Positions 2,585-59,289 of a stretch of 64,000 bases of DNA are shown one piece after another. Source of the stretch: an uncultured Bacteroidales bacterium (GTDB taxonomy: Bacteria; Bacteroidota; Bacteroidia; Bacteroidales; UBA932); assembly GCA_944323445.1 (NCBI GenBank), contig CALUSM010000001.1:1-64000 (forward strand). The letters run 5' to 3'. The notes beneath the pieces were generated by a model. The model was not told where the DNA came from. It searched no databases and was given only the letters and a program-made list of their open reading frames with translations. Numbering within the stretch: position 1 is the stretch's first letter; each line of letters begins with the position of its first letter. The position numbers were made by a program, and so were the translations under genes.

Positions 2585-4009
2585 ATGCTTATGAGAACTA
2601 CCATTTTTACAGCAGTCTGTACTTTTTTGGCGGCTATGACATTGATTTCCTGCGAGAAAGTTGTCGAAGAGCCGCAGCTTGAATCCCCTGTTCTGTCGAT
2701 AGTGGAGACCGGTCCGACCCATTTTGTTATCGGTTGGGAGCCTGTCGACGGAGCTACTGAATATATCTGTGCAATCACAGACGGACCCGAGCGTCCTGTC
2801 GTAGATTGCTCGGTGACTTATACCGGTATGGTGCCTGGAACTTACAATGTGAGGGTAAAGGCTGTCGGAAAGGGATACGAGGATTCTCCCTGGGGACGTA
2901 TCGAGGTGACACTGGAAGCCGTTGAGCAGCCTACCCTGGCCATGGAACTCTCATACGTTGAAGACGGGGCATTTGATATCAGTTTTACCCCCTCCGACAA
3001 TGTCAGCGAGATTCGTTATGCCGTTGTTTCCTCAGTAGCAATGAAGCTCTCCGAGTCTCTCGCCGCGTTCAATGACGGAAGCCTGGAATCTATAGAGACC
3101 TTCGTTCCCGGAGCGGAGAATGTTGTGCATATCCAGCGTGATTCCATAGGCCCTTATGCCGTATATGCCAAGGCTTTCAATGTGGATGAAGGTACGGAGA
3201 GCGAGACTGTCTCAGGCCAGATTATGGCGGCAAGCGCCGGATTTACGGTCGATGCGTATGATTTGGTGGCAATGGACGTGACGAGCACAGTGTATGACGC
3301 AGACCAGACATCTTCGGGAGCCCTCGTTGTATCAAAGCAGGTCCTGGATGAGCTCGGCATGTCTATCGAGGAGCTGCTCGAGACCTACGCCATGTTCGGA
3401 ATGGTGCCTTATGTGGCTGACGGAGAATCCATGACTGTGGCCTTGAACGGGTATGTGAATTATGACTATATAATCGGTGTCGTCGGTTTCGATGCTTCCG
3501 GAATGCCTGCATCCTACGGCAGTTTCTCCCTTTCCACAGGAAATCCCGATCCTTCGCTGTCGCTGCCTTCGCCTATGACTATAGAGGTTTCTGAGGTGAC
3601 CGAGTCGAGTGCCAGGATCAAATATACGATGGGCGAGAATACCCGCATATACTATCAGATGGTGACAACACTTGCAGATTACAACGACCTTATCGATTAT
3701 GGATCTTCTCTGCCTGATTATGAGAAACCCGAGGATTATGTAAGGGATTATGCAGCAGTCTATGGAACACCTATGTTTGCAGATGACGACTATGTCTGGG
3801 GTGGTCTTGCGGCCGGTACTGACTATGTGGTGCTCGGATTTCCTGCAAACGGCAACGGAGCTCAGGGATATGGTGATATGGCCAGGGCCGATTTCACGAC
3901 AGCCGGATCATCTTCGTCCTCGTCTGTCTCTGTCGGCGCTGTTGTCAAGGAGGGTGTGAAAGTCCTTCGTCCCGTTACTGCAGATGAGGTGAGAGCACTG
4001 CTCAGATAG
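2585..4009 (+). CDS. Fibronectin III-like repeat lipoprotein, function unknown
   Basis: 474 aa. The signal peptide ends in a lipobox (TLISC, Cys about 23), so it is probably an outer-membrane or surface lipoprotein. Residues 30-115 read like a fibronectin type III module (GWEPVDGATEYICAI, then GTYNVRVKA), and at least two weaker all-beta modules follow. A Ser-rich stretch (GSSSSSSVSV) comes near the C terminus. A second ATG two codons in (2591) is equally possible as start. It has its own promoter and ends 26 bp before pruA, so it may be cotranscribed with it. No enzyme motif is seen and the role is unknown. Confidence 0.8.
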   Translation: MLMRTTIFTAVCTFLAAMTLISCEKVVEEPQLESPVLSIVETGPTHFVIGWEPVDGATEYICAITDGPERPVVDCSVTYTGMVPGTYNVRVKAVGKGYEDSPWGRIEVTLEAVEQPTLAMELSYVEDGAFDISFTPSDNVSEIRYAVVSSVAMKLSESLAAFNDGSLESIETFVPGAENVVHIQRDSIGPYAVYAKAFNVDEGTESETVSGQIMAASAGFTVDAYDLVAMDVTSTVYDADQTSSGALVVSKQVLDELGMSIEELLETYAMFGMVPYVADGESMTVALNGYVNYDYIIGVVGFDASGMPASYGSFSLSTGNPDPSLSLPSPMTIEVSEVTESSARIKYTMGENTRIYYQMVTTLADYNDLIDYGSSLPDYEKPEDYVRDYAAVYGTPMFADDDYVWGGLAAGTDYVVLGFPANGNGAQGYGDMARADFTTAGSSSSSSVSVGAVVKEGVKVLRPVTADEVRALLR

Positions 4010-4035
4010 AAACGACCAATAAAAATCCATAGAGT

Positions 4036-5667
4036 ATGAAAAATGCAGTTTTTACCTTCCCCCTGCCGGCAAACGAACCGGTGAAATCCTATATGAAAGG
4101 CTCTCCGGAACGGGAGGCACTCGAAGCAGAACTGAAGAGACAGAGCGGTATCGAACTGGATATTCCCCTGATTATCGGCGGTAAGGAAGTGCGTACAGGC
4201 AACACCGGCAAGGTGGTTATGCCTCACGACCATGCCCATGTGCTGGCAACATACCATAAGGCCGGTCCCGAGGAGGTCAGAATGGCCATCAAGGCTGCTC
4301 TCGATGCTCACGAGGAGTGGGCAGAGCTGGACTGGACGGTCCGCGCATCCATTATCCTCAAGATAGCCGACCTGCTCGCAGGCAAGTACCGCGCAGTTAT
4401 CAACGCGGCCTGCATGCTCGGACAGAGCAAGAACTTTTATCAGGCAGAAATTGACTCCGCGTGCGAGACTATCGACTTCCTGCGCTACAATGCGGCCTAT
4501 GCCTCGAAGATTTACGGCATCCAGCCCAAGAGCGGTCCCAATCAGATCAATAGCGTGGAGTACCGTCCCCTCGAGGGCTTTATCTTCGCGCTGACTCCGT
4601 TCAACTTCACTTCCATCGCCTCAAACCTCTCAATGACTCCTGTCCTGATGGGCAATACCGTGGTATGGAAGCCTTCCACCACCGCCATCCTCTCCAACTA
4701 CTATCTGATGAAGATATACGAGGAGGCCGGCGTACCCGCAGGTGTAGTGAACTTCATCCCCGGCAGTGGTGCCGTCATCGGTAAGGAAATCTTCGCATCG
4801 AAGGACCTGGCCGGCGTGCATTTCACCGGTTCCAGCGCCACATTCAATACCCTGTGGCGTCAGGTGGGCGAGAATATTGCCAACTACCGCTCCTATCCCC
4901 GTCTGGTGGGTGAGACCGGAGGCAAGGACTTCATCTTCGTGCATCCTTCGGCAGTGGCCGAGGAGGTCGGCAATGCGGCTTACTGCGGTGCCTTCGAGTA
5001 TCAGGGCCAGAAATGCTCCGCCGCTTCCCGTATGTACGTGCCCAAGTCCCTGTGGCCTGCTGTCCTCGAGAAGATTAAGGATACAGCCGCAAAGGTGAAA
5101 ATGGGTGATGTCTGCGATCCGATGAACTTCATCAACGCCGTCATCGACGAGGCTTCCTTCGACAACATCGCTTCCTACATCGACTACGCCAAGGCATCCA
5201 AGGATGCTGAGATCGTGCTCGGCGGCGGATACGACAAGTCCAAGGGCTACTTCGTGGAGCCTACCGTCATCGTCACCACCGACCCTCATTTCAAGAGCAT
5301 GGAAGAGGAGATCTTCGGCCCCGTCCTCACAGTCTATGTGTACGATGACGCCGATGTGGACAAGGCTGTCGAGCTTTGCGACACTACCTCGCCTTACGGC
5401 CTGACCGGAGCCATCTGGGGCCGTGACCGTCTGGCACTCGAGAAGATTTCCCGCAAGCTGAAATACGCAGCCGGCAACTTCTACATCAACGACAAGCCCA
5501 CCGGAGCTGTGGTCGGCATGCAGCCTTTCGGCGGAGCCCGCGCTTCCGGTACCAATGACAAGGCCGGCGGCGAGTTCAACCTCATCCGCTGGGTGCTGCC
5601 GCGTGCGGTGAAGGAGACGCTGGTGCCTCCCACCGACCATCGCTACACCTACATGAAAGAGGAGTAG
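4036..5667 (+). CDS. pruA: 1-pyrroline-5-carboxylate (L-glutamate gamma-semialdehyde) dehydrogenase
   Basis: 543 aa aldehyde dehydrogenase that oxidises glutamate semialdehyde/P5C to glutamate with NAD+, the second step of proline catabolism. Family motifs: PFNFTSIA (cofactor site), GETGGKD holding the general-base Glu, GQKCSA holding the catalytic Cys, and EIFGPVLTVYVY. The length and N-terminal extension match the stand-alone P5CDH type. No proline dehydrogenase gene is adjacent. The 3' side ends in repeats and a terminator. Confidence 0.95.
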   Translation: MKNAVFTFPLPANEPVKSYMKGSPEREALEAELKRQSGIELDIPLIIGGKEVRTGNTGKVVMPHDHAHVLATYHKAGPEEVRMAIKAALDAHEEWAELDWTVRASIILKIADLLAGKYRAVINAACMLGQSKNFYQAEIDSACETIDFLRYNAAYASKIYGIQPKSGPNQINSVEYRPLEGFIFALTPFNFTSIASNLSMTPVLMGNTVVWKPSTTAILSNYYLMKIYEEAGVPAGVVNFIPGSGAVIGKEIFASKDLAGVHFTGSSATFNTLWRQVGENIANYRSYPRLVGETGGKDFIFVHPSAVAEEVGNAAYCGAFEYQGQKCSAASRMYVPKSLWPAVLEKIKDTAAKVKMGDVCDPMNFINAVIDEASFDNIASYIDYAKASKDAEIVLGGGYDKSKGYFVEPTVIVTTDPHFKSMEEEIFGPVLTVYVYDDADVDKAVELCDTTSPYGLTGAIWGRDRLALEKISRKLKYAAGNFYINDKPTGAVVGMQPFGGARASGTNDKAGGEFNLIRWVLPRAVKETLVPPTDHRYTYMKEE

Positions 5668-6336: not shown

Positions 6337-8028
6337 TTATTTGCTCTTTGTGAAATCGGTTATGTAATCAGGGATGAGACAGCCGAGGACGGAGGATATT
6401 CGGGAGCGCTCGACGTAGAGGGAGTTTTCGCTGATGCCGCGGAGGCGGGCTGTGGTGCCGGTGGAGAAACCGCAGGCGGTGCAGGCTATGGTCAGGAGCT
6501 CGCGGGGTTTGAGTCCTGGGTGCTGCTCCCGGATACGGGCGATGAGTCCGGGGCAAATAGCCTCGCACAACTCCAGGACTTTCTCCTGGCTGCCGTTCCC
6601 ATCCGCTTTCTTTTTGTCCGGATCTCCTATAAATTCTCTCAGGACATCCTTCACCTTTTCGTCCAGCCCCGGTGTACTTCCGTAGCGGTAGTAAGTATCT
6701 ATCAGGGAATCTGTCATGGTGAGCATCTGCCCCAAGGTCTCGAGATGGGTTTTCTTTGGAGTGTTGTCCTCCACTTTTTTATGGAGGCCATCGTTCTCTT
6801 TTTCAAGCTGCGCAGAGCGGGCTTTTATGCGTTTTACGCTGAGTGTCAGTACAGTAGCCAGTAGGGCAAGGATTATGACAGAGGCTATGACAATTATCCA
6901 GGTGGTAAGCAGTTTGTGGCTGAGCCGTTCGTTCTCCAGCTCAGTCCTGCTGTAATCGTAGAATTTCTCAGCCTGAACGAGGCTGTTCCGGTAGCCGGCC
7001 TCTTTGAGACTGTCGGCCATGTCCCAGGCCTTGCCGTGGTATTCCAAAGCTGAGGCGAGATTGCCCTGTGCTTCATAGATGTGGCTGTAGGTAAGCAGCC
7101 GGCTGTATTCCCCTGCAGTCTCCCAGTCGATGCGGGCGGCTACTGCTGCGGCGGAGTCCGGCCGGCCGAATTTTGCGTAAGCACTGGCACACGCGGAAAG
7201 AATATTGCCCATCATCTGTGGTGCTGTAGGTCCCTCTACTGTCCAGCCGAACTCTTTTACCGCTGTATGAGCAGTCTCTATCACTTCTCTCTGTCTGCCC
7301 TGTTTTTCGTAGATATAGCTGATGAGTTCATATCCTATGAGGACTGCATTTCTGTTGTCTGTCATCTGGGCGAGGGCTATGCCTTCCCGGATGTGACGCT
7401 CGGCCTCATTATAGGATTCCGTGGATATCAGTGATCTGGCAAGACTCAGATGGGCCTGGGTTATCCTGCCGATGTCATCTGTCATGTCGAAATAATGCAG
7501 GGCTTTGCGCAGTCTTTCAGTCTCCTCGGGGTCATTTACAAGGGAAAGTCTATATATTTCCCCAATTCTGGTGTTTATTAGACCTAACAGCATATTGGAG
7601 CCTGTTTTTTCCAGTGCTCGCTCTGCGTTTTTGTATGATTCAAGCGCATCCTTTGTTCTTCCCTGCTCATACAGCACCGCACCTTGATACATCAGCGCCT
7701 CTCCCAATTCTTTGTCGTTGCCATGTTTCTGAAAATATCTTACGGCATCATGTATGAGAGTGTCGTCCTTGACAGCCTGAAAACACCTGTATCTTGCTTT
7801 GGTTCCGACAAGAGCAAGCCTGGCATGGTTTTCTCCGCCGAAGTGGATATGCAGGCTGTCTATTTTTTCGATAATAGTCAGCGCAGTATTCGGATCCGTC
7901 TCAGCTAAAACCTCGGCTTCGGCAAGCATACGGACGGCCTCAGCTCTGTCTCCTGAGCAAGAGGCGGCTGTAATCATATATGCAGCAAATAACGCAGCAG
8001 CGGCTACTTTAGTGAGGATTGTATTCAT
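6337..8028 (-). CDS. Membrane-anchored TPR regulator with C-terminal HTH
   Basis: 563 aa. The signal sequence has a lipobox-like ITAASC (Cys about 24). A row of tetratricopeptide-type helices covers about residues 40-340 (for example ALMYQGAVLYEQGRTKDALESYKNAE). One membrane helix follows at about 376-400 (WIIVIASVIILALLATVL), then a coiled coil and a C-terminal LuxR-like helix-turn-helix (LKPRELLTIACTACGFSTG...). This layout is a known Bacteroidota one-component type in which a periplasmic TPR sensor controls a cytoplasmic DNA-binding domain. It is divergent from the peptide/beta-propeller cluster at 8233-10374 and is the likely regulator of it (inference). Confidence 0.85.
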   Translation of the reverse strand: MNTILTKVAAAALFAAYMITAASCSGDRAEAVRMLAEAEVLAETDPNTALTIIEKIDSLHIHFGGENHARLALVGTKARYRCFQAVKDDTLIHDAVRYFQKHGNDKELGEALMYQGAVLYEQGRTKDALESYKNAERALEKTGSNMLLGLINTRIGEIYRLSLVNDPEETERLRKALHYFDMTDDIGRITQAHLSLARSLISTESYNEAERHIREGIALAQMTDNRNAVLIGYELISYIYEKQGRQREVIETAHTAVKEFGWTVEGPTAPQMMGNILSACASAYAKFGRPDSAAAVAARIDWETAGEYSRLLTYSHIYEAQGNLASALEYHGKAWDMADSLKEAGYRNSLVQAEKFYDYSRTELENERLSHKLLTTWIIVIASVIILALLATVLTLSVKRIKARSAQLEKENDGLHKKVEDNTPKKTHLETLGQMLTMTDSLIDTYYRYGSTPGLDEKVKDVLREFIGDPDKKKADGNGSQEKVLELCEAICPGLIARIREQHPGLKPRELLTIACTACGFSTGTTARLRGISENSLYVERSRISSVLGCLIPDYITDFTKSK

Positions 8029-39548: not shown

Positions 39549-40838
39549 TCAGATTCCGAACTCCTTCTTTATCATGTCAACCGAGTCGAGGAGCTCCCAG
39601 CCGAAGAACTGGACTTCCTCCTCTACTGACTTTCCGTCGCGCATGAGCTGAACCTTGCGTCTGAAGGGGTCTCGTCCGAAATGGCCGTATGCGGCTGTGG
39701 GCAGGTAAATCGGGTTCTTGAGTCCGAAACGCTTGATGATGGCTGCGGGACGCAGGTCGAAAATCGTGCGGATCTTCTCGGCTATCTGTCCGTCGGTCAG
39801 GGGTATCCTGGACTTTCCGTAGGTGTTGACGAAGATGCTGACAGGCTCGGCGATGCCTATCGCGTAGGCTATCTGGATAAGAATCTCATCGGCCACACCG
39901 GCTGCTACCAGGTTCTTGGCAATATAGCGGGCCGCGTATGCCGCCGAGCGGTCCACCTTGCTGGGATCCTTGCCCGAGAACGCTCCGCCGCCGTGTGCGC
40001 CCTTGCCTCCGTAGGTGTCCACGATTATCTTGCGTCCTGTCAGTCCGGTGTCTCCGTGGGGACCTCCTATGACGAACTTGCCGGTGGGGTTGACATGGAG
40101 GATGAAATTGCCGTCAAAGAGCTGACGGGTCCTTTCAGGCAGACGGGCGATGATTCTGGGAATCAAGATGGTTTCTATATCCTTGCGGATACGGCTCTGG
40201 ATGGCTGCATCGTTCTCTGGAGTGCCGGGCACCATGTCTTCCGCAGCGGGAAAGTCATCGTGCTGGGTGGATATGACGATGGTGTGCACTCTCAGCGGCC
40301 TGTGGTCATCGCTGTACTCGATGGTGAACTGGGACTTGGCATCCGGACGGAGATAGGGCATGGGGGAGGGGTTCTCCCTTCGTATCCTGGCCAGCTCTAT
40401 CAGTGCTATGTGGGCGAGGGTGAGGGGCAGGGGCATGTATTCTTCGGTGTCGTTGCAGGCGTATCCGAACATCATGCCCTGGTCACCGGCTCCCTGCTGC
40501 TCCTCCTCGGTGCGTTCAACGCCACGGTTGATATCGGGCGACTGCTCGTGCAGGGCGGAGAGGATACCGCATGACTTGGAGTCGAACATGTAGTCGGCCT
40601 TGGTGTATCCGATCTTCTCTATTACGCCGCGGGCGACATGCTGGATGTCCACGTAGGCGTTCTCTGAGCGGACCTCACCGCAGATGACGGCAAGTCCGGT
40701 GCTTACAAATGTCTCACAGGCCACCTTGGCCTCGGGGTCCTGACGCAGGAAGTCATCGAGTATGGCGTCCGATATCTGGTCGGCCACCTTGTCAGGATGT
40801 CCTTCTGAAACTGATTCTGAAGTGAAAAAATATGCCAT
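39549..40838 (-). CDS. metK: S-adenosylmethionine synthase
   Basis: 429 aa from ATG 40838, where [17 protein letters not shown] begins; the open frame runs further up but only into the leader. Motifs [20 protein letters not shown]-type segment (GGGAFSGKD) and [16 protein letters not shown]. Makes SAM from Met and ATP. The leader carries a terminator hairpin. Confidence 0.97.
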
Positions 40839-40861
40839 AATATATAAAAGGTATATAAAAC

Positions 40862-40897
40862 AAAAAAATCTCTTCCGAACGAGTTTCGGAGAGATTT
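40862..40897 (-). terminator. Intrinsic terminator in the metK leader (attenuator candidate)
   Basis: On the minus strand the stem AAATCTCTCCGAA / TTCGGAAGAGATTT closes a 5-nt loop and is followed by T7, 24-30 nt before metK. Loop-side AAACTCGTT (40886-40878) is complementary to AACGAGTTT farther upstream (40981-40973), which could form a competing helix. Confidence 0.7.
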
Positions 40898-41093
40898 GAC
40901 AAAACACTAACTGTATGAAAGATTCATTTTAGCATTTTTTAGTGTGGTTGCAAGCAGGCAAATCTGTCCACAAAACTCGTTTTGACATTCCTTTTTGGAA
41001 ATGTCACGCAAATGTCATAACAAAAATTTGGATATGCAAATTTTTTTGAATTTTTTTGCGAGAAATTTTACAACCAATTTACAATCTACACCA
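40898..41093. other. Divergent metK / TonB-receptor control region
   Basis: About 200 AT-rich bp. Contains GACATTCC/GGAAATGTC at 40984-41004, a hairpin on either strand, and several poly-T tracts just before the receptor gene. I see no exact TAnnTTTG box for metK. Confidence 0.4.
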
Positions 41094-48588: not shown

Positions 48589-48701
<113 letters not shown>

Positions 48702-50215: not shown

Positions 50216-50701
50216 ATGAACAGCACATCATTCACTTCCTACCAACGCCTCGCACTCAAAGGCATGGACAACCAATCCCTAATCAACCTAATCAGACAAG
50301 CATCAACCAACTTCCCCGACACATCCCTCATCATCACACCGAGAATAGACCAGTCGGAACAAGCCTACTACTGGACAGGTCTGAGATACGGCAATACCGA
50401 ACTGGACTTCGCACTCCTGCTGAACCGAGAGATAGAGGCATTCATCCTCTGTTTCCTCATAAAGGGCAGGGACGGTATGACAGACATCTCCAGCTACTCA
50501 CCGGACCCGACAATGACAAGGGGAATCAACTGGCTCCAGTCCCACATGTACAGACACCTCGAATACTCACAGCAGACACAGGACTTCATCAGATACAGCA
50601 AAGGACGTACATTCCAGAACAGAAAACTGACATTCCCGTTCGGAAGTATAGTCTACTCACAGGAAATTGAGAACGTCCTATCTGTAAACAGAGCCATTTA
50701 A
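50216..50701 (+). CDS. Hypothetical element protein
   Basis: 161 aa, not recognised. Predicted mixed alpha/beta with YYWTGLRYGNTELDFALLLN and a basic C-terminal third (RYSKGRTFQNRKLTFPFG). No signal peptide. Unusual codon choice with many TCA, ACA and ATC. It has normal TGG Trp codons and a TAA stop, with no internal TGA. Lies between the AATCATCCAAA repeats. Confidence 0.6.
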   Translation: MNSTSFTSYQRLALKGMDNQSLINLIRQASTNFPDTSLIITPRIDQSEQAYYWTGLRYGNTELDFALLLNREIEAFILCFLIKGRDGMTDISSYSPDPTMTRGINWLQSHMYRHLEYSQQTQDFIRYSKGRTFQNRKLTFPFGSIVYSQEIENVLSVNRAI

Positions 50702-51147: not shown

Positions 51148-51178
51148 GTTCAATTCTCTGTAAATCAGTGGAATTTTA

Positions 51179-51210
51179 TTTGGATAAGTCGGAAAAATTT
51201 CCTATCTTAG
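51179..51210 (+). promoter_or_regulatory. Promoter upstream of ORF B
   Basis: TTTG at 51179-51182, 20 nt, TATCTTAG at 51203-51210. Good fit to the Bacteroidota consensus apart from A for T at position 7. It would start a transcript about 10 nt before ATG 51225 and drive ORFs B, C and the helicase gene. Confidence 0.6.
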
Positions 51211-51224
51211 CATTACAGATTCAG

Positions 51225-51440
51225 ATGAGACAGATGCCACGCCCGGCACAGGTCTGATGGAGGGAATACCCCATACAGGCAGCTCACATATGCGTAACGG
51301 TACATAAGGACAAGGGGGAGGCTCACAGGCGCTTTCCCCTTAACTTGTGCCATGAAGTACCATATTTTCTGAGCGGTGACTGAGCTGTACTGGGGCCCCA
51401 AAAAGAGACAGGGACGCAGAAGATACATTTAACCGAATAA
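51225..51440 (+). CDS. Candidate TGA-recoded ORF B (two in-frame TGA)
   Basis: 71 residues from ATG 51225 to TAA 51438 if TGA (51255 and 51381) is Trp. Reads MRQMPRPAQVWWREYP early and CHEVPYFLSGDWAVLGP late. A promoter lies just upstream and the next ORF starts 11 bp after its stop, as in an operon. The word VPYFLS is encoded by the same DNA repeat that occurs at 51606 and 53650. Function unknown. Confidence 0.45.
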
Positions 51441-51451
51441 AACGAACAGAA

Positions 51452-51634
51452 ATGGAGAGAGAAAAAGCAAAACGCAGGAGACACGGACCGACAATATGCT
51501 CAAAGGCCAAGGAGATGCCGATATTGCTGGAGATACTGATGACACGGAGGCAGAGGGCATACATAATAGAGCCTGTGGAGTACTCATGCACGGAGACCCT
51601 GTATCTACCATATTTTTTGAGTTGTGAAAATTAA
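51452..51634 (+). CDS. Small basic ORF C between ORF B and the helicase gene
   Basis: 60 aa with no internal TGA: basic start MEREKAKRRRHGPT, middle helix MPILLEILMTRRQRAYII, and end ETLYLPYFLSCEN. Its 3' end lies inside the first hairpin repeat, and its LPYFLS echoes VPYFLS in ORF B. It may be a small nucleic-acid-binding protein. Not recognised. Confidence 0.45.
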   Translation: MEREKAKRRRHGPTICSKAKEMPILLEILMTRRQRAYIIEPVEYSCTETLYLPYFLSCEN

Positions 51635-51675
51635 AGTCTATATAAAATACACTTCGTTACTCAAATTTTATGGTA
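51606..51675 (+). repeat. Hairpin repeat, left copy
   Basis: Arms TACCATATTTTTTGAGT (51606-51622) and ACTCAAATTTTATGGTA (51659-51675), three mismatches, with internal AGTCTATATAAAATA. Near-copy of 53650-53719 in the same orientation. The two bracket the helicase gene. A single arm (TACCATATTTTCTGAG) also occurs at 51358-51373. Confidence 0.7.
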
Positions 51676-51741
51676 ATGGGAATATGTAAGAGATAAGGCT
51701 GAGCGCAGCCGATTTAAATCCAACTAAAGTACCGAACTAAT

Positions 51742-53601
51742 ATGATAGCAAAAGCAACAACATCAATCTGAACAGAAACAAAAGAGATTACAGCAGATAC
51801 GAGGATAACAGCACCAGACAAGGCAAGATACCTCGGAGACTGAATGGAAGAGATACCCTCCAACTGCGTTCTGAGCAAGGGAACGACTGGATGCGGAGCC
51901 ACCACACTTGCAACGGAGCAGAGAACACCCACAATCATAGCCGCACCATTCGTGGAACTGATAGGGAACAAGGCGGCACAGTACCCCGATAACGACAACG
52001 GAAGACCAGTGCTGCTGCCGATATACGGAGAGGGAGACAAGACAAGGGAGATAGCAGAGTACATGCAGAGACACGGAGACCTGCCGAAGATAATGACCAC
52101 ATACGATTCAGTGCCAAAGGTCTGCGGGATACTCACATCAATGGGATACGACCCTTATGAGACGATGCACCTGTGTATTGACGAGTGGCATCTGCTGTTG
52201 AACCAGTACAGTTTCCGCAACAGGGCTATAAGGAACCTGCTGGAGACCGCGAGGAAGTTCAACAGAGTAACCTGCATGTCCGCCACACCGATAGAGAGGA
52301 AGTACTGGCTGGAGGAACTTGCCGATATGCCGGAGTACAGGATAGACTGACCGCACATCACTCCGATAAAGGTGAGAAGCCACAGGATAGACGGAAGCCC
52401 CTTAAAGTACATGACGGGAATATGCAGGGACACACTCAGACATGATACCCAGTACAACCTGCACATCTTCCTAAACAGTGTGGAGGGTGCAAAGGCAGTT
52501 ATAGACGCACTGGAACTCACGCCGGACATTGCGAGAATCGTATGCGCGGACAATGACGAGAATACGGTGAAACTGGACGGATTCCCGAGAAGCAGCACAA
52601 AGGACACGGTAAGGAGAATCAACCTTTACACCTCAACGGCTTTCGAGGGGTGCGACATATACGACAGTGACGGAATGACATTCATAGTAAGCGACACGAG
52701 GAAAAGACATACCCTCATAGACATATCGACCTCGATGATACAGATATGCGGACGTGTGAGGGATTCAAGATACGGAGAGACAGTACACCTGTATGACACG
52801 CTCCCCTACAAGGACACCACGTTGGAGCAGTTCGAGGACGCCACGTGAAAGAGTGTGGAGGAGGCTGAGGAATACGTGCGATGGCTCAACTCGGCACCAG
52901 ACAGGATAAAGCCAAAGACACGGGGAATAATATCATACAGCGATGACAGATACATAATAAACAACGGAGGAACATACAAAGTGGACAGGAACATGGCAAA
53001 GTACGAGATACTGAACTGAAAGACGGTGAACGGCATATACACGGCAGGCAACACAGTAGAAGATGAAATAAAGAGACAAGGGATAGAGATAACCAACAGC
53101 GACAGCTATACTGAGCCTAAAATGGCAGCGGTATTATCCCCGAGGGCAAAGTTCGAGGACCTTTTTGAGAGATACTGCGAGATAAGGGACAAGGAGCCGG
53201 AGATATGTCTGACCCCGAGCATAGAGAGACAGATGATAGAGACGAGGAATCCTCTTGTTAAAGAAGCATATGAAAAGATAGGGGCAGTGGAAGTGAGGAG
53301 GATGAAATACCACCAGTCCAACATCAAGCGCAGACTGATAGCGGAGAGCAGCAGGAACTTCGCGGTAAAGGTCGTGGAGATGCTGGATTTGGCGTTGAAG
53401 AAACAGACATGGATACCGTCAGCCAAGGTAAAGGCGGAACTCCAGAAGATATACGACAGCCTCGGAATCAAGAAAACCGCAAAGGCAACCGACATAGACG
53501 AATGGTACGAGGTGAGGAGGGAGAGCAGGAAGATTGACGGCAAGAACATCCACTGCATGATGATACTGCGCAGGACATTCATATCACTTAGGAACTTCTA
53601 A
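51742..53601 (+). CDS. Superfamily-2 helicase-like gene with five in-frame TGA codons
   Basis: A continuous frame of 619 codons from ATG 51742 to TAA 53599. The only interruptions are TGA at 51769, 51841, 52348, 52846 and 53017 (codons 10, 34, 203, 369, 426). Five TGG Trp codons also occur. Helicase motifs span the TGA codons: Walker A-like GTTGCGATT at 47-55, with Ala or Thr where Lys is usual, DEWH at 147-150, SATP at 180-183, TSTAFEGCD near 298-306 and QICGRVRDSR at 334-343. The C-terminal 190 residues are helical and basic. Arg is mostly AGA/AGG and Ile often ATA, unlike the host. In the standard code it falls into three pieces. It may belong to the degenerate P-loop helicases of Bacteroides phages (from memory). 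TGA read as Trp is the simplest reading; a very young pseudogene is the alternative. Confidence 0.8.
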
Positions 53602-53649: not shown

Positions 53650-53719
53650 TACCATATTTTCTGAGTAACGAAATTCAGAGTCTATATAAAATAACATTCA
53701 TAACTCAAAAAATATGGTA
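53650..53719 (+). repeat. Hairpin repeat, right copy
   Basis: Arms TACCATATTTTCTGAGT (53650-53666) and ACTCAAAAAATATGGTA (53703-53719) with one mismatch; internal AGTCTATATAAAATA as in the left copy. Starts 48 bp after the helicase stop. Confidence 0.75.
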
Positions 53720-54335: not shown

Positions 54336-54653
54336 ATGAAATCGAGCGACATACTTAAGGAGATAAAGCGGATAGCCAAGGAAGTTCTCCCGAAAGGAGC
54401 GCGGTTGATACTGTACGGCTCCAGAGCGAGGAATGAGGCTGATGAGGATTCCGACTGGGACCTGCTGATACTTCTGGACAAGCCGAAGATAGAGCATGGA
54501 GATTATGACAACGTGCTTTACCCTTTTGCCGCACTGAGCTGGGATGTAGGTGAACTGATAAGCCCTGTTATCTATACCAAGGAGGAATGGGGAAAATGCT
54601 CGTTCACTCCATTTTACAAGAATGTTGAACAGGACGGAATAGTATTGGTATGA
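54336..54653 (+). CDS. MNT-type nucleotidyltransferase antitoxin (MntA-like)
   Basis: 105 aa minimal nucleotidyltransferase: LYGSRARNEAD with GS at 28-29 and the metal-binding pair D40 and D42 in SDWDLLI. In the family such proteins AMPylate the partner HEPN toxin. Its stop (TGA) overlaps the start of the HEPN gene by four bases. Confidence 0.9.
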   Translation: MKSSDILKEIKRIAKEVLPKGARLILYGSRARNEADEDSDWDLLILLDKPKIEHGDYDNVLYPFAALSWDVGELISPVIYTKEEWGKCSFTPFYKNVEQDGIVLV

Positions 54654-55048
54654 GACTGAATGATGAAGAACGCCGGATTATTGTCAATCTGGAATATGAA
54701 AAGGCATTGTCATTCTTGAAACAAGCGGAAAGCATAGCTGCGCTGGACTTCTGGGATGCCGTTGCCAACAGACTTTACTATGCGGTATTCCATGCAGTAT
54801 CAGCACTTCTTGTTAAGGATGGATACAATGTCAGCACTCATAAAGGGACACTGGTGATGTTCGGACAACATTATGTGAAGACAGGCATATTTACGGCAGA
54901 TGCATCCAGTCTGTACATCAAACTCCAGACAATGAGAGAGAAAAGCGACTATAACTGCGTTTATGTAACAACTGCCGAAGAAATGCAGCCGCTGTTCGAG
55001 CCAGTAAGGGAGTTTATAGCAAAGGTCGGCAATCTGATAAAGGAGTAG
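54650..55048 (+). CDS. HEPN-domain toxin (HepT-like)
   Basis: 132 aa all-helical HEPN protein. The RNase motif RX6H is seen as RLYYAVFH (R41 to H48). Later THKGTLVMFG and REKSDYN fit the HEPN fold. Together with the preceding gene it forms a toxin-antitoxin pair; it may defend the element or ensure its retention. Confidence 0.88.
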   Translation: MRLNDEERRIIVNLEYEKALSFLKQAESIAALDFWDAVANRLYYAVFHAVSALLVKDGYNVSTHKGTLVMFGQHYVKTGIFTADASSLYIKLQTMREKSDYNCVYVTTAEEMQPLFEPVREFIAKVGNLIKE

Positions 55049-55367: not shown

Positions 55368-55661
55368 ATGGACATGACAGCGAATGAAATCACAGACAGA
55401 CTTATCCTCGAAAATCAGAATCTGGTCGTAGAAGAACTCATGAGACACGATGAAAGCCTATTGGACAGTCTCCAGAACCTCGATGAGAACAGTGAAATCA
55501 TGGAATGGTGGCTTGTTACTCCCTACATGGCAGAACTGCTTAAAGAAAAGGGAGAGGTAATTTTATCGGACTATGGCTGCTACTGGTGGGGACGAACAAC
55601 AAGCGGGCAGGCACTTTACATGGACGGAGTGATACAGGAGATAGCGGAACAGATGAGGTGA
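55368..55661 (+). CDS. Small acidic element protein, unknown
   Basis: 97 aa, acidic, Trp-rich: IMEWWLVTPYMAELL and YGCYWWGRTTSG. Seems a soluble alpha protein. Start may be ATG 55368 or 55374. Ends in TGA as stop. Not recognised, though such short acidic proteins are common on Bacteroides mobile DNA. Confidence 0.6.
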   Translation: MDMTANEITDRLILENQNLVVEELMRHDESLLDSLQNLDENSEIMEWWLVTPYMAELLKEKGEVILSDYGCYWWGRTTSGQALYMDGVIQEIAEQMR

Positions 55662-56612: not shown

Positions 56613-57251
56613 ATGAAAAAGATTTTATTACTTGCATTGCCACTTATGGCGATGTGCGCAGTTTCGTGCGAGAAATGGAAAGATGACAGCCAGATTATCC
56701 ATTTCAAAGACCCGAGCTTTTTAAAGGCTGTACTTGAACTTGTTTTTGATTTTGGAAGTATAGACAGAAATGGAGACGGGCGGATTTCTGAAAAAGAGGC
56801 CTTAGTCGTTGAGACTCTTGAAGTAGGAAGTGGTGGTATTGAGTATTTGGATGAAATCAAGTATTTTACAGCTTTGACATATTTGGATTGCAGTTTTAAT
56901 CAGCTCACCTCACTAAATGTAGGTTTCAATTTTGCTTTGACATATTTGGATTGCAGTTTTAATCAGCTCACCTCACTTGATTTAAGCAACAATACTGCTT
57001 TGACAGATTTGAATTGCATTTATAATCAGCTCACCTCACTTGATTTAAGCAACAATACAGCTTTGACAGATTTGTATTGCTTTTATAATCAGCTCACATC
57101 TCTTGATTTAAGCAACAATACTGCTTTGACAGATTTGAATTGTAATGGCAATCAACTGAAAAAAATCATCTTGCCTAGTAATCATAGTCTTGATGACTAT
57201 GTTATACAGGAAATCATATCTGTATACGGAGATATAATAGAATACAGATAA
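56613..57251 (+). CDS. Leucine-rich-repeat lipoprotein with EF-hand-like loop
   Basis: 212 aa. Lipobox MCAVSC (Cys 19). A DRNGDGRISEKE calcium-loop motif at about 51-62, then 21-residue LRRs (LTSLDLSNNTALTDLNC). At DNA level five near-identical 63-bp units start at 56871, 56934, 56997, 57060 and 57123, so the array has expanded recently. Surface-exposed, probably an adhesion or binding protein. Confidence 0.85.
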   Translation: MKKILLLALPLMAMCAVSCEKWKDDSQIIHFKDPSFLKAVLELVFDFGSIDRNGDGRISEKEALVVETLEVGSGGIEYLDEIKYFTALTYLDCSFNQLTSLNVGFNFALTYLDCSFNQLTSLDLSNNTALTDLNCIYNQLTSLDLSNNTALTDLYCFYNQLTSLDLSNNTALTDLNCNGNQLKKIILPSNHSLDDYVIQEIISVYGDIIEYR

Positions 57252-58239: not shown

Positions 58240-58563
58240 ATGAAAAGGATAATCGCATATAAAGGGTACTATGCCGAATTTATGGCAAAGTTGTCGGAGC
58301 AGGAGAGGAAGAAGATAATGCGTGCGTTGCTGCTGTTTGAGACGGAGGACAAGATACCGCATCATTACATCAAGTTCATAAGGGACGGAATATACGAGTT
58401 TAGGGTGAACTATGGAAACAATGAGTTCCGGCTGCTCTTTACCTATGACGGAGATACGATAGTCATTCTCTTCAACTGCTTCAAGAAGAAGACACAGAAG
58501 ACCCCTAAAAGCGAGATAGATAAAGCAATAAAGTTAAAAAATGAATATTATGAGCACAAATGA
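58240..58563 (+). CDS. higB: RelE/HigB (Gp49-like) toxin
   Basis: 107 aa from ATG 58240. Beta-strand core GIYEFRVNYGNNEFRLLFTYDGDTIVILFNCFKKKTQKTP, the Gp49/HigB mRNA-interferase pattern with its basic C-terminal region. Overlaps the antitoxin by 23 bp. Toxin-first order as in HigBA. Confidence 0.88.
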   Translation: MKRIIAYKGYYAEFMAKLSEQERKKIMRALLLFETEDKIPHHYIKFIRDGIYEFRVNYGNNEFRLLFTYDGDTIVILFNCFKKKTQKTPKSEIDKAIKLKNEYYEHK

Positions 58564-58843
58564 CATTTACGATGTTAGCGCAGAACTTGAGAAGGAGTTC
58601 GGAGCAAAAGGTACGCCTCAGAGAGACGCAGCAATAAACCATGCATGGGAGGAGTACAATGCTCAGATTCTTCTGGATGCAAGGAAGAATGCAGGACTTA
58701 CACAGGCAGAGCTGGCCAAGCGCATAGGAGCGGATAAAGGCTATATCTCCCGTGTGGAGCGAGGTCTTACCATACCCACGGTCGCAACACTCTACAAGAT
58801 AGCAGCGGCTATGGGAATGACAGTTGAGCTGAGGCCTCTATAA
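58541..58843 (+). CDS. higA: HTH antitoxin (HigA/XRE type)
   Basis: 100 aa. C-terminal XRE helix-turn-helix (AGLTQAELAKRIGADKGYISRVERG). Starts inside the toxin gene at ATG 58541. Binds the toxin and represses the operon. Confidence 0.9.
   Translation: MNIMSTNDIYDVSAELEKEFGAKGTPQRDAAINHAWEEYNAQILLDARKNAGLTQAELAKRIGADKGYISRVERGLTIPTVATLYKIAAAMGMTVELRPL

Positions 58844-59142: not shown

Positions 59143-59289
<147 letters not shown>

Follow-up and report, generated by a model that had tools for sequence, protein, structure and literature searches.

A helicase gene with UGA at tryptophan positions in a satellite-like element of a standard-code Bacteroidales bacterium

Introduction

Phage satellites are small elements that carry a tyrosine integrase, a replication-type gene of their own and toxin-antitoxin or defence cargo, and that use a tRNA gene as target. 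The P4-like and PICI satellites (PMC8628076, PMC10111431) serve here as a comparison for an integrated element found in 64,000 nucleotides of an uncultured Bacteroidales bacterium (GenBank assembly GCA_944323445.1, contig CALUSM010000001.1, positions 1 to 64,000; this whole stretch is called the window below). The element contains a helicase gene whose frame is interrupted five times by TGA and by no other stop codon. Its other counterparts in the literature are phages that use genetic code 4: such phages are on record together with their suppressor tRNAs, as are recoded prophages living in hosts of the standard code (PMC10746230, PMC10879173, PMC11210395), and the reason why phages recode is debated. 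In-frame stops conserved in bacteria have also been surveyed, with an over-representation in the mobilome, and in that account genes recoded at several stops are expected to turn into pseudogenes (PMC7918605). The window helicase looks like an exception to this expectation. Among the open-access papers searched, no title or abstract opening names a UGA-recoded gene in a satellite or other small integrative element. Here we describe comparisons that strongly support the reading of UGA as tryptophan in this gene, and we weigh how the helicase might be made.

Results

UGA occupies tryptophan positions in the helicase gene

The frame at 51742-53601 has 619 codons and ends in TAA. Translation confirmed the observation that started this work, made in an earlier note on the same DNA: TGA stands at codons 10, 34, 203, 369 and 426, internal TAA and TAG are absent from all 619 codons, and five TGG codons are present. 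With the helicase piece between the second and third TGA as query, 7 of 99 relatives matched, the window's own genome included. Searches returned at least 80 further loci in public genomes and 9 viral ones, and additional scans gave 11 and 3 viral loci (partly the same records) and matches in 11 of 393 genomes of the order, again with the window's own. Among 89 loci examined, nine had a TGA in the interval from -1 to 560 of the match (L019, L028-L033, L085 and L100); TGA at -17 and beyond upstream, or past 560, was counted as lying outside the gene. The frames of L085 and L100 soon reach TAA and were taken as truncated. The TGA-bearing set comprises 12 genes, namely those of the window, its sister element in genome G002, a second G002 element, G013, G014, G016, L029 (truncated), L030 (from goat rumen), L019 (a viral contig, the gene cut by the contig end), two elements of G413 and phage L145. 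The G413 elements, from another family of the order, show the same UGA pattern in the helicase.

Pooled, the 12 genes hold 37 TGA, 31 TGG and not a single internal TAA or TAG, a TGA-only pattern beyond chance, as the earlier note had argued for the one gene that it saw. We placed the TGA codons in a 35-row alignment in which placeholders mark the stops; it omits 12 of the 47 rows of our tree, some of its rows labelled TGA-free carry TGA outside the gene body, and L145 represents L146-L148, in which the helicase frame is repeated (L022 and L048 are not in the tree). The note had proposed this comparison with homologues. In it, 29 of the 37 TGA cells stand opposite tryptophan in another row (random positions: mean 1.7, at most 7 in 2000 draws), and eight face none. 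When only rows outside the TGA set are considered, 26 still do so (1.5 on average and at most 6 for random positions), and in those rows aromatic residues make up a mean share of 0.50 at TGA columns versus 0.10 at random ones. At several columns, one of them in the helicase motif II region, TGA and the ordinary tryptophan codon replace each other among relatives.

The window codons differ in this respect. No other aligned row has tryptophan at the position of codon 369, yet the sister element carries the same TGA there, and the N-terminal stretch around codon 10 is poorly conserved. The assignment to tryptophan is well supported by the alignment for the remaining three of the five. At the column of codon 34, where nine of the 12 genes have a tryptophan codon, that codon is UGA in all nine and UGG in none; with about six lineages by our count, the exclusive use of UGA at this entry column is suggestive only. 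On the 47-row tree, the TGA label requires at least two changes (shuffled mean 10.8; none of 500 shuffles as low) and falls on two places: one clade, although its members L159-L161 lack TGA in the gene, and, apart from it, phage L145.

The reading frame beyond the UGA codons is under purifying selection

The window and sister helicases have three TGA in common. Over the 582 codons downstream of the first shared TGA, 71 synonymous changes compare with 34 non-synonymous ones (dN/dS 0.124; p = 5e-20 for the synonymous excess, with the neutral share set at 0.25). Taken one by one, the stretches between later TGA codons and beyond them gave dN/dS of 0.07-0.14, and the 23 codons from the first to the second TGA gave 0.40. 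Behind their own first TGA, the G013, G014 and G016 genes yielded weaker values of 0.25-0.38, still below 1. The earlier note had suggested dN/dS across related elements as a check and had named accumulating frameshifts as the mark of an ordinary pseudogene. The former turned out as a working gene would have it, and the latter were looked for and not found: the window and sister genes align gap-free across 1758 nt, with 94.0% nucleotide identity. Since this identity is close to that of the integrase (92.9%) and of a 97-aa gene (94.2%) in the same two elements, we conclude from the sequences that the helicase gene diverged within its element.

Elsewhere the helicase has been exchanged as a unit. 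Flanking genes are 92-93% identical between the window and G014, but the G014 helicase shares only 54% amino-acid identity with that of the window in the first piece. Set against L013, which has flanks of the same identity, the exchanged module covers 51230-53601 of the window. When UGA codons were scanned in three diverged elements, the only ones with both flanks conserved in another element were in the helicase (8 of 114 sites). The other element ORFs contain 111 UGG and no UGA, a biased count because ORFs picked under table 11 cannot contain UGA; the conserved-flank scan is the fair test.

Because UGA lies on tryptophan columns, UAA and UAG are absent from 12 genes and dN/dS is 0.12 without any indel, the sequence evidence that UGA is read as tryptophan in the window helicase is strong.

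The product is probably a helicase of the viral origin-binding kind

Pfam matches of the stretch bounded by the second and third TGA were of DEAD/SNF2 type, weak and below cut-offs, and an NCBIfam search gave no match. An uninterrupted phage homologue of 585 aa (L149) was modelled (pLDDT 78.9). DEAD-box helicases led the PDB matches of this model; the herpes simplex virus 1 (HSV-1) origin-binding protein (9hgi_B) ranked fifth and was the sole such entry among the 50 listed. Among the 50 viral models listed from BFVD, 11 were named origin-binding. The TM-scores by query were moderate (0.29-0.43). A canonical Walker A lysine was found neither in the window helicase, where GCGATT replaces GxGKT, nor in the homologue alignments. 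On the basis of the model, the window gene probably encodes an SF2 helicase of the viral replication-origin-binding kind, for which a role in replication would be natural. In Psychrobacter phage D'Alembert the homologue has an HNH nuclease and an RNA ligase as neighbours; other homologues likewise occur in tailed phages, and a distant one on a viral contig (L026) is fused to a BT4734-like domain.

The helicase family recurs in recoding phages

In the phage represented by L145-L148, TGA occurs within the frames of the terminase (6), portal (3), head protease (1) and helicase (2). Four other ORFs of this phage (361-436 aa) have no TGA and one to four TGG each; the only match of the 436-aa ORF of L146 is to an uncharacterised protein family. 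A candidate UCA-anticodon tRNA follows the L146 helicase at a distance of about 125 nt. Rfam scores it at 45.9 bits (cut-off 29); ARAGORN finds it only at a relaxed threshold, and its anticodon stem is poor. In phage L149 the terminase and portal frames contain a single TGA each. Two viral homologues are accompanied by tRNAs with anticodons CUA (L152) and UCA (L153), their helicases having no internal stop. Treating TAG as a sense codon leaves L151 and L152 more open. Because L145-L148, L149 and L151-L153 show such signs of recoding or suppressor tRNAs, the family is, as judged from sequence, recurrent in recoding phages. It is not exclusive to them: the contigs of homologues L144 and L150 carry no sign of recoding. 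On another viral contig (L194; 523,836 bases, of which 9.9 kb was examined), long-ORF density rose from 0.16 to 0.60 with UGA as sense.

Evidence that the host uses UGA as a stop

The window genome (2.29 Mb in 59 contigs) was compared with its genus. The release factor RF2 (prfB) passed the cut-off of its family in 17 of the 19 genomes of the genus. In the exceptions it was found in two pieces (G005) or as a 33-residue match only (G002, the genome with two UGA helicases), gaps that we tentatively read as contig breaks. Frames of 203-231 aa with a partial release-factor match occur in four genomes (G000:C12, G002:C12, G009:C30 and G015:C4) and are perhaps PrfH-like rescue factors.

One and the same tRNA-Trp(CCA) motif is present in 16 of the 19 genomes, and the five copies run through ARAGORN were called tRNA-Trp. 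A pattern that recovers this tRNA in those 16 genomes found no UCA-anticodon tRNA in any of the 19, nor was one found in a further genome carrying such helicase genes; the pattern would miss a strongly diverged tRNA such as that of phage L146. The check for such a tRNA foreseen in the earlier note therefore came out negative in the host genus and positive, as a candidate, in a related phage. Two matches containing CTT were discarded, that in G011 as a tRNA-Ser and that in G010 as a site with no tRNA. In the window element itself no suppressor tRNA gene was recognised, and even a relaxed tRNA search gave none with UCA, as the note had also found for UCA.

In the window, 6 of 33 chromosomal ORFs of at least 150 aa end in TGA (longest-ORF picks, not curated), as do the integrase, nucleotidyltransferase (MNT) and 97-aa genes of the element, which bears out the view that TGA is a true stop here. 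G002 also holds a distant helicase homologue without any TGA (L058). From RF2 in 17 of 19 genomes, tRNA-Trp(CCA) without a UCA tRNA, the TGA ends and the TGA-free homologue, the host is taken to be a standard-code cell. Genome-wide recoding of the host was rejected on the grounds of prfB and the TGA ends.

The helicase lies in an element integrated in a tRNA gene

An 85-nt direct repeat, 99% identical in its copies at 48617 and 59205, bounds an element of 10,588 bp within tRNA-Gly. The gene order is integrase, 161-aa protein, leader, palindrome, helicase, palindrome, MNT-HEPN, 97-aa phage-type protein, cargo and Gp49-HTH pair (Table 1). Repeat-bounded elements of 8.7-12.9 kb were found in six of eight cases tested, four of the six with a UGA helicase; in five related elements the repeats are spaced 11.4, 12.9, 9.6, 8.7 and 10.4 kb apart.

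Table 1. Features of the integrated element in the window
Feature	Position	Strand	Basis or remark
tRNA-Gly (GCC), integration target, left end	48589..48664	+	ARAGORN, Rfam
attL, 85-nt repeat copy	48617..48701	+	99% identical to 59205-59289
Tyrosine integrase, 405 aa	48886..50103	+	Phage_integrase E 3.3e-20; SAM_5, Arm-DNA-bind_5
161-aa conserved element protein	50216..50701	+	88-94% identical in three sister elements; no Pfam/PHROG match
Non-coding leader	51161..51350	+	99.5% identical in sister element
Promoter-like TTTG-N20-TATCTTAG	51179..51210	+	Read from sequence
Imperfect palindrome, upstream side of helicase	51606..51675		Sequence analysis
SF2 helicase gene, viral origin-binding-protein kind by homologue	51742..53601	+	TGA at 51769, 51841, 52348, 52846, 53017
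Second palindrome copy, downstream side of helicase	53650..53719		z -4.2
Nucleotidyltransferase (MNT) of MNT-HEPN pair	54336..54653	+	NTP_transf_2 E 1.3e-10
HEPN partner	54650..55048	+	HEPN E 4.7e-15
97-aa Trp-rich phage-type protein	55368..55661	+	phrog_26364 E 1.1e-10
Lipoprotein-like leucine-rich-repeat cargo, 63-bp repeats	56613..57251	+	Type read from sequence, no library search
Gp49-like protein, toxin of toxin-antitoxin pair by family	58240..58563	+	PF05973 E 3.5e-23
HTH antitoxin-like protein	58541..58843	+	HTH_3 E 2.7e-15
attR, 85-nt repeat copy	59205..59289	+	Sequence repeat

No capsid, terminase or relaxase was recognised in the element, in which not every ORF was run against libraries: nine non-helicase window ORFs gave no structural match in Pfam, four of them none in PHROGs either, and the ORF at 56613-57251 was not run. 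Likewise, no satellite marker gene was recognised, no search by name having been made. Rfam matches in the element include no selenocysteine-element family, and PADLOC returned only weak partial matches. Homologues of the 97-aa protein occur in L011, L012, L013 and L014, in L182 (by eye), and as partial matches in three phage records.

The leader is conserved above the surrounding genes, comes after a Bacteroidetes-type promoter-like sequence, which we take to fit the consensus of that group, and has no Rfam match. Palindromes of about 70 nt flank the helicase in both the window and the sister element and could be origins, terminators or exchange sites. In a diverged element of another family (L183) a clear palindrome lies on one side (7472-7540) and a weak match on the other; at the same stringency none was seen in L011, L013-L015, L182, L185 or L019. 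L183 also encodes a TIR-domain protein (3803-5254) as cargo of a sister-type element, as in satellites with defence genes. At L029 (truncated) and L030 a UGA helicase occurs without a homologue of the window integrase in the stretches examined, as if the helicase unit had moved alone.

The 63-bp tandem repeats of the leucine-rich-repeat cargo span 56867-57181. Before attR, the element repeats the initial 21 nt of tRNA-Gly and then has an insertion, which accounts for a split-tRNA call by Rfam at 59143-59249; the 21-nt copy is also present in L012 and L013. Outside the element, a SAM-II riboswitch lies at 40919-40977 on the minus strand, upstream of a minus-strand ORF (39549-40907).

Discussion

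A selected gene with UGA as tryptophan in a standard-code host, carried by an element in which no suppressor tRNA was found, implies that decoding is supplied by something else in the cell. We consider it slightly better than an even bet (probability about 0.52) that this is a working gene of a satellite-like element and that the helicase is made only when UGA decoding is provided in trans, likely by a recoding phage. While the element is resident, the host would read UGA as a stop and translation would end at codon 10 or 34, leaving the cell without helicase; the UGA of codon 34 lies at the entrance of the gene. Upon infection by, or induction of, a UGA-recoding phage, the UGA-decoding tRNA of that phage would supply tryptophan, full-length helicase would appear, the excised element could replicate, and a helper phage might then package it. 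The fuller version of this scheme, a code-locked satellite untranslatable in the host code and opened by the code that a phage imposes, with the genetic code itself as the induction signal, is a tentative proposal to which we give somewhat less than even odds. Of the two ideas put forward in the earlier note, a UGA-tryptophan gene akin to that of a TGA-recoded phage in a standard-code genome has stood, whereas the limiting of expression to certain conditions by UGA has not reached the same standing.

Several observations weigh against decoding by a phage. The close relatives L159-L161 lack UGA within the gene altogether, which makes UGA dispensable for the helicase family. The L149 helicase has no TGA although UGA is present in other genes of that phage. 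The recoded phage that we did find (28% GC) has no demonstrated link to the window host; its own host would be a standard-code cell, judging only by its UGA-free ORFs. A resident terminase of the phrog_9 kind was found in none of the 19 genus genomes, other terminase families not having been searched, and these genomes yielded no UCA tRNA by pattern. In a published set, UCA tRNAs accompany only 11 of 73 predicted table-4 phages, many of which infect code-4 hosts (PMC11210395). As for the element, a second repeat was not found for L011 and L182 in the stretches examined, and L029 (truncated) and L030 lack a homologue of the window integrase among the ORFs examined.

The main rival to decoding by a phage, which we regard as unlikely, is read-through by the host: tRNA-Trp(CCA) would misread UGA often enough for a little helicase, and little would be needed. 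The host tRNA-Trp (L120, L131) indeed has a U11-A24 pair in its D arm, a change that we take to be that of the classical UGA suppressor tRNA-Trp. Read-through of UGA at 6% in Bacillus subtilis, cited in PMC7918605, points the same way; the four-bp anticodon stem described as a mechanism in PMC13092985 was sought and the host stem is normal. With two to five UGA per full-length gene, however, losses would multiply; RF2 is present in 17 of 19 genus genomes, and other element genes and host ORFs end in UGA. Tolerated UGA would also be expected in other element genes, and the conserved-flank scan of three diverged elements placed it in the helicase only. Less probable again is a defence gate, in which the product harms phage replication and UGA forms a trap sprung by a phage-borne UGA-decoding tRNA. 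It would suit the MNT-HEPN pairs of the elements, the TIR-domain protein of one G413 element, the different helicases between flanks that are 92-93% identical and the constant UGA at the entry column, but the homologues are phages' own genes, the model resembles origin-binding replication helicases, and the PADLOC matches are weak and partial.

A fossil, that is, a helicase recently captured from UGA-recoding phages, selected only there and never translated in the element, seems slightly less probable still. The swapping of the module between elements with flanks 92-93% identical, the flanking palindromes and the homologue in a recoded phage would fit such a history; against it, once their shared UGA had arisen the window and sister helicases co-diverged with their elements, without gaps and with purifying selection acting on them, and the pattern recurs in several host species of two host families. 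Stops in mobile genes usually do mark decay, but an ordinary pseudogene was rejected here by the 37 UGA against no UAA or UAG in 12 genes, the tryptophan columns, the dN/dS of 0.12 and the lack of indels, and we hold it very improbable. Selenocysteine, which would be compatible with UGA as the sole stop type, fares worst of all: the columns are mostly tryptophan or aromatic and not of cysteine type, each gene has several UGA, and no selenocysteine-element family of Rfam was matched in the element.

If decoding by a recoding phage is indeed what makes the helicase, the element would be direct evidence of a third party exploiting recoding, and translation of its helicase would reveal which code the cell is using. 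There is also a practical warning, as UGA-bearing genes of this sort get annotated as broken.

The locus can be compared with three known systems. Herpesvirus helicases of the UL9/OBP kind (SF2) match the fold modelled for the uninterrupted phage homologue; on the other side, the PDB list of the model is led by DEAD-box proteins, the window motif I lacks the usual GKT lysine, and origin binding is only predicted. Code-4 phages likewise have UGA-tryptophan codons in selected genes inside a standard-code host, and phage L146 carries a homologous helicase; the window element differs in having no recognised structural or packaging gene or suppressor tRNA, and in that UGA was seen in one gene only. 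Phage satellites are alike in size (about 9-13 kb for these elements), in the tyrosine integrase, the exact att borders in a tRNA gene, the replication-type gene and the cargo, and in that no capsid and terminase set of its own was recognised in the window element. No helper was found for this element, and its dependence, unlike that of the described satellites, would run through the genetic code and not through a repressor or capsid protein.
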